A DNA stretch of 64,000 bases from positions 62,001-126,000 of the forward strand of contig VBLC01000040.1 of the NCBI GenBank assembly GCA_005879315.1. Reading direction: 5' to 3'. Shown here piece by piece: positions 58,835 to 64,000 of the stretch (positions are counted from its first letter, which is position 1; every line of letters begins with the position of its first letter). The notes beneath the pieces are model-generated. The model was not told the DNA's origin. It ran no database searches and saw only the letters and a list, made by a program, of their open reading frames with translations. The position numbers were made by a program, and so were the translations under genes. This DNA is from Deltaproteobacteria bacterium. Its GTDB lineage: Bacteria > Myxococcota > Myxococcia > Myxococcales > 40CM-4-68-19.

Positions 58835-59502
58835 AGCGCCTGGTCGTCTACCTGAGCGAGACCGACAGGCATGGCCTGCGGCCCCTCTGGCGCGAGGTGC
58901 TCGACCTGCTGCGCAAGCACGGCCTCGCCGGTGCCACCGCCAGCAAGGGCCTGGCCGGCTTCGGCCAGAGCGGCAAGCTGCACGAGGACATCGATCCCGA
59001 TGCGATGCCCGACCGGCCGGTGACCGTCGAGGCCATCGACGAAGAGGCCGCCATCGACCGCGCGCTCCCCGACCTCGATGTGCTCGTCCCTCGTGGCCTC
59101 ATCGCCGTGCACGACGTCCAGGTGATCAAGTCGCTCCGGCACGAGAGCAAGGAGACAGCGGTGACGCACAAGAAGCTCACCGGCAAGGCGAAGATGCTGC
59201 GCATCCACATCGGCGCGAACGACACCTGGGAAGGCGAGCCGCTCTTCGATGCGCTCCTCAAGCGCTTCCACCAGCTCGACCTCGCCGGCGCGACCGTCTA
59301 TCGCGGCATCGAGGGCTACGGCGCAACCGGCCGCATCCACCGGCGCGCGGTGTGGCGGTCGAAGGACGAGCCGATCACGGTGGTCATCGTCGATGCCGCC
59401 GAGAAAATCGAGAAGGCGCTGCCCTATCTCGATCAGATGCTGCGCAGCGGGCTCGTCGCCATGTCGGACGTCGACGTCATCATCTACCGCGAGGAGAAGT
59501 GA
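58831..59502 (+). CDS. Tandem DUF190 protein
   Basis: A TTG at 58831, overlapping the crcB stop and preceded by GGAGG, starts a 223-residue product. It has two copies of the DUF190 domain: LKRLVVYLSETDRH at the start and KMLRIHIGANDTWEGEPLFD in the middle, each followed by a GIxGxG-type loop and a DVQVI / DVDVIIY end. DUF190 genes often accompany crcB and are PII-like in fold. A role in fluoride sensing is plausible. Confidence 0.88.
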   Translation: MKRLVVYLSETDRHGLRPLWREVLDLLRKHGLAGATASKGLAGFGQSGKLHEDIDPDAMPDRPVTVEAIDEEAAIDRALPDLDVLVPRGLIAVHDVQVIKSLRHESKETAVTHKKLTGKAKMLRIHIGANDTWEGEPLFDALLKRFHQLDLAGATVYRGIEGYGATGRIHRRAVWRSKDEPITVVIVDAAEKIEKALPYLDQMLRSGLVAMSDVDVIIYREEK

Positions 59503-61385: not shown

Positions 61386-62200
61386 GGCGCGCCTCCGCGC
61401 TGCTGCTCGCCCTCGCCGTGTCTCCTCCGGCGCTGGCTCGCGGGAAGCATCTCCCGCCGCGGGTGCGGCCCGAGGACAATCGCCGCCTCAAGGGCAACGC
61501 CAAGGCTTTCTTCAGAGCGCGCGTCGCCTTCGCCGCGCCGCATGACCGCGCCCAGCTCGAAGCAGGCGATCCGGTGCCCATCCAGCTGCGCGTGACCGGC
61601 TACGCCATCGGCGCGCTCTCGCCTGGCGGGCCGGTGCCGCACGCGCATCTCATCGTCGACAACGCGCCGGCGATGGAGATCGACGACCTGCACGCGCCAC
61701 TGCAGCTCAAAGGACTCTCGCCCGGGCCGCACCTCCTGCGCGCGGTGCTGTGCCGGCCTTGGCACGAAGTGGTCAAGGCGCCCAAGGCCTTTGCCATGGT
61801 GCGCTTCTGGGTGGGGCCGAGGCTGCAAGGCAAGGAAGGCTGGGTCGCCGAGCGCGCCGCCTGGCCCGATCCGCGAAACCCCATCCTCACTTACGTGCTT
61901 CCCGTCGGGCGCGGCGAGAAGGTCGAGCTTTCAGGCGCGGCCGATCCCGCGCAGGGACCCGAGCGGCCGCTGCTCGACTTCTATCTCTCCCATGCGCACC
62001 TCGCCCGCCGCGGAGCGAAGGTGCGCGTCGTGCTCGACAAGCGCGAGCTGCCGCTCATCACCGAATGGAAGCCGCTCACCCTGCGGCGGGCGCGCTGGGG
62101 CGCGCATCACGTCACCATCGACCTGCTCAGCAGGAAAGGGGTGCTGGTGAAGAACGCCGTCAACCGAACGCACCGCGCGTTCGAGGCGGGGGGTAGCTAG
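61382..62200 (+). CDS. Secreted hypothetical protein
   Basis: A TTG at 61382, overlapping the thioesterase stop, gives 272 residues with a signal peptide (RRASALLLALAVSPPALA). The mature part is beta-rich with a repeated LRxxRxGxH pattern (DGLSPGPHLLRAVLC-like and RRARWGAHHVTID segments), suggesting an Ig-like fold. No enzyme motif is seen. Its TAG stop lies inside the CTAG at the left end of the repeat element. Confidence 0.6.
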   Translation: MRRASALLLALAVSPPALARGKHLPPRVRPEDNRRLKGNAKAFFRARVAFAAPHDRAQLEAGDPVPIQLRVTGYAIGALSPGGPVPHAHLIVDNAPAMEIDDLHAPLQLKGLSPGPHLLRAVLCRPWHEVVKAPKAFAMVRFWVGPRLQGKEGWVAERAAWPDPRNPILTYVLPVGRGEKVELSGAADPAQGPERPLLDFYLSHAHLARRGAKVRVVLDKRELPLITEWKPLTLRRARWGAHHVTIDLLSRKGVLVKNAVNRTHRAFEAGGS

Positions 62201-62305
62201 TATATCTGCCCGGAAATTCGTTCCGTGTGGTTGAGCGATGAATGCCAGGGGTGGGTTGTAGATTGTTCCGTGATTCGGATCGAAGGCAGGACGGTCAGCT
62301 TCAGG

Positions 62306-62329
62306 AGCCCCAGGCTGAAGCCTGGGGCT
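62306..62329 (+). repeat. REP hairpin, left copy
   Basis: AGCCCCAGGC and GCCTGGGGCT form a perfect 10-bp stem around TGAA. It is the reverse complement of the right copy at 62624-62647. Confidence 0.85.
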
Positions 62330-62412
62330 AGAGAGGCACCAAGCCTCCTTCGGAGGCTCGAGCGCAGTGTTCTGATCGCTCAGCCGTTGATCTCCGCCGA
62401 TCTCGAGGCAGA

Positions 62413-62595
62413 GCCTCATCTCATCTCGTGACTCATCGGTTGGCGCCGGGATCCTTCTTCCGCTGGCAAGCCGGCTACGGTGCCTTCACGATCTCCACTG
62501 CTGACGTGCCGGCCGTCGAACGCTACGTTCTGGATCAGAAGCAGCAGCACGCGAGTCGGGCCCTTGAGCCAACTCTGGAACTTGCCGGTCTTTGA
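62413..62595 (+). pseudogene. C-terminal remnant of a REP-associated tyrosine transposase
   Basis: The frame ending at TGA 62593-62595 reads FFRWQAGYGAFTIS, then AVERYVLDQKQQH. This matches the end of TnpA_REP/Y1 transposases (F-x-WQ-x-GYGAFSVS, then a helix with RY-Q-H). The HUH and tyrosine catalytic region is absent, because only about 60 codons remain. It was too short and degenerate to be listed as an ordinary gene. Confidence 0.7.
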
Positions 62596-62623
62596 GCTTC
62601 CGCAGGAGGCTTGGTGCTCTTTT

Positions 62624-62647
62624 AGCCCCAGGCTTCAGCCTGGGGCT
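62624..62647 (-). repeat. REP hairpin, right copy
   Basis: AGCCCCAGGC, TTCA, GCCTGGGGCT: a perfect 10-bp stem, inverted relative to the left copy. It lies 29 bases after the transposase remnant's stop, the usual place for a REP beside its transposase. Confidence 0.85.
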
Positions 62648-62723
62648 CCTGAAGGCGACAATCTACAACCCACTCCTGAGATCCATCGCCAACCAACACG
62701 GAACGAATTTACGGTTACGCGTA

Positions 62724-63128
62724 CTAGCCCTTCTCGACCGGCTTGCCGGACTTCTCCCAGCCCCTGATGCCGTCCGGCATGATGTAGACGTTCTTGAATC
62801 CGAAGGAGAGCGCCGCCCGGGCGCCCTGGTGGCAGGCCAGTCACTTCCTGTCGTGACAGTAGAAGACCACCTTGCGCGAGCGGTCCTTGGGCAGGTCGGC
62901 TTCCTTCACGTCCTTGAAGCTGACCCACTTCGCGGTCGGGACGTGGCCGGCCTTCCAGTCGTCGTAGGCGTTGTTGTCGAATATGTCGATGTCGCGCTTG
63001 GCGATGAGGTCGGCAACCTCATCGACCGACAGCTCGTTGAAGCCCTCGTGCTTCGCCTCGCCGGCGCGGGCCGCAAAGGCGAGGAAGAGAACGCCGAGTG
63101 CGACGAGAGTCGTGCGGAGGATGGTCAT
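62724..63128 (-). CDS. Periplasmic rhodanese-like protein with in-frame TGA (selenocysteine candidate)
   Basis: The ATG at 63128 begins a signal peptide (MTILRTTLVALGVLFLAFAARA) and a rhodanese domain. After KVVFYCHDRK a TGA occurs at 62843-62841, yet the frame continues with LACHQGARAALSFGFKNVY, then GIRGWEKSGKPVEKG and a TAG at 62726-62724. The tail is standard rhodanese sequence. In recalled homologs the TGA position is Cys in FYCxxxC-x-A-(C/S)-H, so decoding as Sec would give UxxC. A hairpin lies 17-31 bases after the TGA. A nonsense mutation or sequencing error is the alternative. Total 134 codons. Confidence 0.7.
62810..62824 (-). promoter_or_regulatory. SECIS-like stem-loop downstream of in-frame TGA
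   Basis: On the minus strand, GCGCC, loop CGGGC, GGCGC forms a perfect 5-bp GC stem. The loop starts 22 bases after the TGA and has G at its second position, which agrees with the described bacterial SECIS features (small apical loop, early G, loop 16-37 bases from UGA). Such hairpins also arise by chance in GC-rich DNA. Confidence 0.4.
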
Positions 63129-63148: not shown

Positions 63149-63580
63149 TCAAGTCTGCTTGTCCATGCGGATGTGGGGGATGCCGGCGTCTTGAAACACA
63201 GGACCCGTCGCGACGTATCCGGCGCGCTCGTAGAAGGGCCGCGCCTCCACCTGCGCCCAGAGACTGAACCTGCGCGCTCCGCGGCGGCGCGCCTCCTCCT
63301 CGAGAAAGGCGAGCAGCGCCCTCCCCGCCCCCCGGCCGCGGACGCCGTCGGCGATCGCCATGCGCTGGATCTTCGCCACGCCCGGCTGCTCGAAGATGAA
63401 GCGGCCCGCCCCGCAGGGCACGCCCTCCGCCAGCACCAGGGCGTGGACCGCGTCGGAGCGGTCGTGCTCGTCGACTTCCAGCGAAGGCGGCACGCCTTGC
63501 TCCTCGACGAAGACCGCCCAGCGCAGCCTCAGGCAGAGCTGGATCTGCTCGGGCGAGTCAGCCAGCCGGACTTGAATCAT
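63149..63580 (-). CDS. GNAT family N-acetyltransferase (ElaA-like)
   Basis: The 143-residue protein has the GNAT core IQRMAIADGVRGRGAGRALL, with the acetyl-CoA loop RGRGAG, and ARPFYERAGYVATG. The N-terminal LRLRWAVFVEEQGVP and the EVDEHD segment are typical of the ElaA/YjgM-like group. The acceptor is unknown. It overlaps the OPT gene by 23 bases and precedes the rhodanese gene by 20. Confidence 0.88.
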   Translation of the reverse strand: MIQVRLADSPEQIQLCLRLRWAVFVEEQGVPPSLEVDEHDRSDAVHALVLAEGVPCGAGRFIFEQPGVAKIQRMAIADGVRGRGAGRALLAFLEEEARRRGARRFSLWAQVEARPFYERAGYVATGPVFQDAGIPHIRMDKQT

Positions 63581-64000
63581 CGCTCTTGAGGAGCCGCTCC
63601 GACGCCACCGCCCAGAGCACGGCGCCGAGGCCGAGGAAGAGAAGCAGCGAGACCAGATCGCTCGCGGCGAAGGCGGGGATCTTCGCGCTCACGTTGATGC
63701 GGCCGAGGAAATTGCGGGTCGTCTCGGAGAGCTGCAGGAAGGCGAGGATGGTCCCGATCACCGACGCGCCGGCGATCAGCCCCGAGGAGAAGAGGACTCC
63801 GGGGCCGCTCTCCGCCTCGGCGCCGCTCAGCTTGCGGCGCGCGGTCTTGTCGGCGACGTAGCGGACGAGGCCGCCCAGCAGGATCGGCGTCGAGGTCGAA
63901 AGCGGCAGATAGACCCCGACGGCGAAGGCGAGCGAGGAGAGCCCGCACAATTCCAGCACGACGGAGATGAAGACGCCGATGAGCACCAGTCCCCAGGGCA
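63558..64000 (-). CDS. OPT-family oligopeptide/metal-chelate transporter, 5' end outside window
   Basis: The frame runs off the right edge with no start needed; an internal ATG at 63986 is not the likely start. The visible C-terminal 147 residues are hydrophobic helices with the OPT signature FAVGVYLPLSTSTPIL and GLVRYVADK. OPT transporters import peptides or iron-siderophore-like chelates. The gene is partial. Confidence 0.85.
   Translation of the reverse strand, partial: PWGLVLIGVFISVVLELCGLSSLAFAVGVYLPLSTSTPILLGGLVRYVADKTARRKLSGAEAESGPGVLFSSGLIAGASVIGTILAFLQLSETTRNFLGRINVSAKIPAFAASDLVSLLLFLGLGAVLWAVASERLLKSDDSSPAG

Follow-up and report, generated by a model that had tools for sequence, protein, structure and literature searches.

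An in-frame TGA in a small rhodanese gene of a myxococcal genome probably encodes selenocysteine

The minus-strand gene at 63128-62724 of the window, that is, of the whole stretch of 64,000 nucleotides that was analysed, very probably codes for a small single-domain rhodanese with one selenocysteine (Sec), likely to be periplasmic, whose UGA is decoded via SelB and whose Cys91 and Sec96 lie in one loop. We put the probability of this reading at about 0.93. The original prediction was that the TGA in this rhodanese gene may encode Sec, and it is supported by the conservation of the TGA, by a SECIS hairpin, and by the presence of selA, selB, and selD. That UGA 96 is decoded as Sec is, as far as sequence comparison goes, strongly supported. 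The features of the locus are:

63128-62724, minus strand: predicted rhodanese selenoprotein gene, ATG at 63128-63126 to TAG at 62726-62724, 134 residues with Sec at position 96
63060-63128, minus strand: signal-peptide-like N-terminal segment MTILRTTLVALGVLFLAFAARAG, with a basic start, a hydrophobic core, and AxA, recognised by inspection
62856-62858, minus strand: Cys91 codon, invariant, aligned with the catalytic Cys63 of YgaP (loop C-x4-U)
62841-62843, minus strand: in-frame TGA (Sec96); the homologous codon is TGA in 41 of 97 sequences, Cys in 55, and Tyr in 1
62832-62834, minus strand: Cys99 codon (UxxC), present in the own family, Ser in Anaeromyxobacter-type relatives
62727-62840, minus strand: tail of 38 codons after the TGA, with a helix at residues 98-108, a strand at 114-117, and a helix at 120-126
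62807-62827, minus strand: predicted bacterial SECIS hairpin, 8 bp arms 62827-62820 and 62814-62807, 5-nt loop CGGGC at 62819-62815
63149-63580, minus strand: GNAT acetyltransferase (PF13673, PF00583), upstream in the same direction, a recurrent neighbour in the family
63558-64000, minus strand: 3' part of an OPT-family transporter gene (PF03169), upstream of the GNAT gene and running off the window

Retranslation of the frame gives MTILRTTLVALGVLFLAFAARAGEAKHEGF...VVFYCHDRK, then the TGA, then LACHQGARAALSFGFKNVYIMPDGIRGWEKSGKPVEKG and the terminal TAG. The TGA at 62843-62841 is the sole interruption and, as had been predicted, the frame continues beyond it for 38 codons without a frameshift. 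When the TGA was read as Cys the protein scored 59.6 bits with the Pfam Rhodanese model PF00581, whose cut-off is 22.2. The standard, mechanical ORF call starts at an upstream TTG and ends at the TGA, giving 103 aa; gene finders would cut this rhodanese short because the apparent stop codon is, on our reading, a Sec codon. Such a short call costs more than a quarter of the protein plus the Sec residue. That it would lose a functional tail had also been foreseen, and this is borne out by the selection on the tail: among seven congeneric sequences pN/pS beyond the SECIS stretch is 0.16. Judged from sequence and model together, strong purifying selection acts on the tail after the TGA, which is predicted to complete the rhodanese fold.

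A six-frame search of 99 genomes of the genus, family, and order found TGA at this rhodanese codon in all seven genomes of the genus (the own genome and six congeners), in G007, G008, G010, and G012, and in a set of genomes of family f6, while Cys replaces Sec in two members of the own family f1, G009 and G011. The Anaeromyxobacter records L141, L154, and L156, whose loci were fetched by name, carry the TGA as well. When distinct homologues were pooled from all loci, 97 in number, 41 had TGA (Sec), 55 had Cys, and one had Tyr, so that the alignment of homologues suggested with the original prediction gave mainly TGA or Cys at this position. In a phylum survey of 179 genomes there were 75 matches at E<=1e-20; by a count from the table, 33 of them have exactly one internal TGA and none has an internal TAA or TAG. 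Thus, the further stops in the tails of relatives that would have told against the prediction are absent, and the chance that resequencing would show TGC or TGG is countered by the recurrence of TGA in independent assemblies of relatives. That TGA recurs at this codon in dozens of genomes goes beyond chance. In a quick tree, in which few forks are well supported, the Sec/Cys label takes about 10 changes. A scan of the genome contigs with the single protein found no relatives, while an alignment used as the query found 79.

A hairpin of 5 bp had been noted at 62824-62810; it exists, and its stem extends to 8 bp with a loop that starts 21 nt after the TGA. The bacterial SECIS model calls for a loop of 3-9 nt with a G in its first two positions, a stem of 4-16 bp, a UGA-to-loop distance of 16-37 nt, and an energy of -7.5 kcal/mol or better (PMC13188914). 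These published rules were scripted and applied to 41 Sec and 55 Cys genes, and they were satisfied in 41/41 of the former vs 4/55 of the latter, so that the proposed search for a bSECIS 3' of the TGA had a positive outcome. In all 41 TGA genes a SECIS-like hairpin lies 20-22 nt downstream of the codon, and in several other Myxococcota lineages the hairpin of the Sec genes is displaced by one base. The difference in hairpins between Sec and Cys genes is significant (Mann-Whitney p ~2e-15, with related sequences treated as independent). Recoding the same peptides synonymously weakens the hairpins on average in the Sec set and not in the Cys set, the combined p being ~3e-15 for Sec genes and 0.997 for Cys genes, again with related sequences treated as independent. 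Among 23 sequences in one register, 7 pairs are formed in 98% of cases with two-sided changes in 3 pairs, a level of covariation that was reached in 0/500 shuffles; for example, Gly/Ala and Leu/Val differences co-occur and swap a G-C for a C-G pair in the stem. In seven congeneric sequences synonymous change is suppressed in the SECIS stretch only, with a pS of 0.15 there as compared with 0.41 upstream of the TGA and 0.45 downstream of the stretch. The stability of the window hairpin by itself is no greater than expected by chance in such GC-rich DNA (z ~ +1 against dinucleotide shuffles), and Rfam models at the gathering threshold had no match in the window. The case for the SECIS therefore rests on conservation and covariation, because the dinucleotide-shuffle stability gave no support; the hairpin exceeds chance in its conservation, its covariation, and its restriction to TGA genes.

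The machinery for Sec was then looked for, as had been suggested, in the own genome. It has selB (contig C65), selD (C78), and selA (C113), all above the curated cut-offs, and the absence of selB that had been named as a ground for rejection did not occur. The selD gene (L017, contig C78, 31788-32720, minus strand) itself has one TGA, read from the sequence in the context LLSHGSG-U-ACKLRP, and GSG-U-ACK is what we take to be the classic SelD Sec site. Since this in-frame TGA is at the usual SelD Sec position, selD is likely to code for a second selenoprotein of this genome. The search for the machinery succeeded only in part, and tRNA-Sec was not found in the own draft assembly (125 contigs, 97.6% complete) with the Rfam model or with two pattern searches, one for the anticodon arm with 2 mismatches and the other a looser gapped pattern. 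Nor did ARAGORN find it in the 20-kb regions around selB, selA, selD, and the window locus. It is present in four of the six congeners (G001, G002, G003, and G005), and the three of these genes tested with ARAGORN were all tRNA-Sec with anticodon TCA; the ORFs that flank tRNA-Sec in the congeners showed no obviously shared neighbours. We infer that the missing tRNA-Sec of the own genome is an assembly gap. The relatives G004, G006, G007, and G010 also have SelB and the TGA rhodanese with no tRNA-Sec match, and assembly gaps are the simple reading there too. By our tally SelB is present in 24 of the 26 genomes with the TGA rhodanese, the remaining two being 61% and 66% complete, and the TGA rhodanese is present in none of 11 near-complete SelB-free genomes. 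The sole genomes of family f1 with the Cys version, G009 and G011, have neither SelB nor a tRNA-Sec match; the only other genome of this family without SelB is the incomplete G002.

Could the TGA nevertheless be a real stop, the gene being a pseudogene or coding for a truncated protein as a result of a point mutation or a sequencing error? The standard ORF call, which ends at the TGA, and the failure to find tRNA-Sec in the assembly agree with this, but the TGA is kept at this codon in dozens of species and independent assemblies, the tail is under purifying selection, truncation takes away part of the fold, and no other stop codon is found inside any of the 75 matches. A pseudogene or a sequencing error was therefore rejected on the grounds of conservation, and we consider a real stop scarcely credible. 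It is also very improbable, though a little less so, that the UGA is read through by suppression as Cys, Trp, or another residue, or that tRNA-Sec has been lost and the gene is decaying or only partly read through. The draft assembly without tRNA-Sec is what such a loss would leave, but selA, selB, and selD are all intact, the selD product in turn requires Sec at its own TGA, the Sec-coding gene retains a covarying SECIS, four of six congeners have tRNA-Sec, and the gene has no frameshift or extra stop. A general reassignment of TGA was judged unlikely because TGA also terminates genes here, among them the neighbouring GNAT gene and, in several congeners, the rhodanese gene. A crude scan of the window for internal TGAs with coding-like sequence on both sides gave six more, at 59500, 50390, 27149, 26926, 6837, and 2272, which likely stem from adjacent genes or from chance.

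The AlphaFold model, built with 45 window and locus sequences, has a rhodanese fold with a mean pLDDT of 89, which is about 98 from residue 31 on and 51-52 over residues 1-20. Its matches in the PDB are rhodaneses, YgaP and GlpE among them. Without decoding of the UGA by SelB and Sec-tRNA-Sec, which the downstream hairpin would direct, the product would be short of two helices and one strand of this fold. The N-terminal segment suggests that the protein is probably exported to the periplasm. In a phmmer alignment Cys91 falls on Cys63 of YgaP and residue 96 on the loop arginine, and the alignment of 45 sequences shows no variation at Cys91 or in the Cys/Sec column 96, whereas Cys99 varies. Alignment and model would thus place Sec96 in the active-site loop, five residues past the putative catalytic Cys91, at the position taken by the loop arginine in YgaP and other canonical rhodaneses. 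The original prediction had described a UxxC motif and had the tail supply the second redox residue. The motif is present here, but it is not family-wide, the Anaeromyxobacter-type relatives having UxAS, and the second claim did not hold because Cys99 is specific to a clade and the invariant partner, Cys91, precedes the TGA.

Because Cys91 and column 96 are invariant and Cys99 is not, Cys91-x4-Sec96 is the likely redox pair. Cys91 would accept sulfane sulfur as a persulfide, Sec96 would attack this persulfide with release of sulfide and formation of a Cys-Sec selenenylsulfide, and a thiol reductant would reset the latter; Cys99 may help as a resolving thiol in the own clade. Candidate substrates are thiosulfate, polysulfide, protein persulfides, and selenite-derived species. 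A different role for Sec96, which concerns the mechanism only and not Sec decoding, is that it is structural, or binds a metal or selenium, or forms a thioredoxin-like UxxC pair with Cys99 instead of Cys91. UxxC is indeed found throughout the own family and in many Myxococcota relatives, but the Anaeromyxobacter-type relatives keep Sec96 with Ser at position 99, Cys91 is invariant, and Cys91 and Sec96 are both within the active-site loop; we regard this alternative as a serious one that is on balance unlikely. Returning to the Cys91-Sec96 pair, we propose tentatively, and with more doubt than belief, that these proteins are a distinct exported C-x4-U subfamily, found widely in Myxococcota and in single records of Acidobacteriota and Pseudomonadota, where Sec would replace the loop arginine as a second redox centre and not as the sulfur acceptor, so that the enzyme would be a selenium-dependent persulfide reductase and not a sulfurtransferase.

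The surroundings of the gene give no clear functional clue. In several family f1 genomes, one of them with the Cys version, the rhodanese gene is downstream of the OPT transporter and GNAT genes, and the OPT gene, a recurrent neighbour, has a full-length ORF of 774 aa in locus L053. In the Anaeromyxobacter-type relatives the surroundings differ, with ThiC and enolase recognised by sequence inspection. Beyond the OPT gene the conserved neighbourhood has a ferredoxin-like protein with many CxxCxxC-type motifs (L053, 11976-12476, on contig C92 of the own genome). On the other side, a MITE-like element at 62196-62728 with nested inverted repeats (62294-62359/62594-62659, 88%; 62196-62266/62658-62728, 79%) adjoins the rhodanese stop codon, which its outer arm overlaps. 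A 24-nt palindrome, AGCCCCAGGCTTCAGCCTGGGGCT, occurs twice in the element, whose core translation, SFFRWQAGYGAFTIS, presumably resembles REP-associated tyrosine transposases.

The natural Sec and Cys versions, which track the presence and absence of SelB in family f1, are a ready pair for studying the benefit of selenium to a rhodanese. In a 2006 table Anaeromyxobacter dehalogenans has 11 selenoproteins and no rhodanese among them (PMC1794560), and later catalogues may include one; the record of the Anaeromyxobacter isolate PSR-1 (L141) is among those that carry the TGA rhodanese gene. Since none of the NCBIfam models scores this family above its cut-off, annotation would yield short calls for the gene and for many of its relatives.

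That rhodanese-related selenoproteins have already been described, as the original prediction stated, is correct: a 2026 review lists five rhodanese-like forms, namely, UxxS, UxxG, CxU, UxxG, and TsoB with UxxxxU (PMC13188914), and UxxC is absent from this list. Form 1 (PF00581, UxxS, WP_010941598.1; PMC13188914) is likewise a rhodanese domain with one Sec. Its motif is that of the Anaeromyxobacter-type relatives, which suggests that the present family may be kin to form 1; the own clade differs in having UxxC. TsoB (NF045694, rhodanese/DsbD fusion-like) is the best NCBIfam match (47.7 bits, E 6e-13), and its two Sec have the same spacing as Cys91-x4-Sec96. However, TsoB has two Sec in a long fusion protein, whereas the window protein is a single domain with one Sec and has Cys at the first position, and its 47.7 bits, far below the 805 bits set as cut-off, and its one Sec rather than two place it outside NF045694. 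The rhodanese-related (seleno)protein of NF041203 (rhodanese_LYCAU, CxU, 'LYCAU') is also a small single-domain rhodanese selenoprotein, but the motif listed for it puts Sec two residues past the Cys and not five as here, and at 40.8 bits against a cut-off of 115 bits the window protein is outside this model as well. It is therefore well supported that the window protein adds to the known rhodanese selenoproteins and is outside both curated selenoprotein rhodanese models. With the rhodanese domain of E. coli YgaP and with other single-domain rhodaneses it shares the fold and the catalytic Cys, whereas YgaP is without Sec, has Arg at the loop position of Sec96, and has its rhodanese domain in the cytoplasm.
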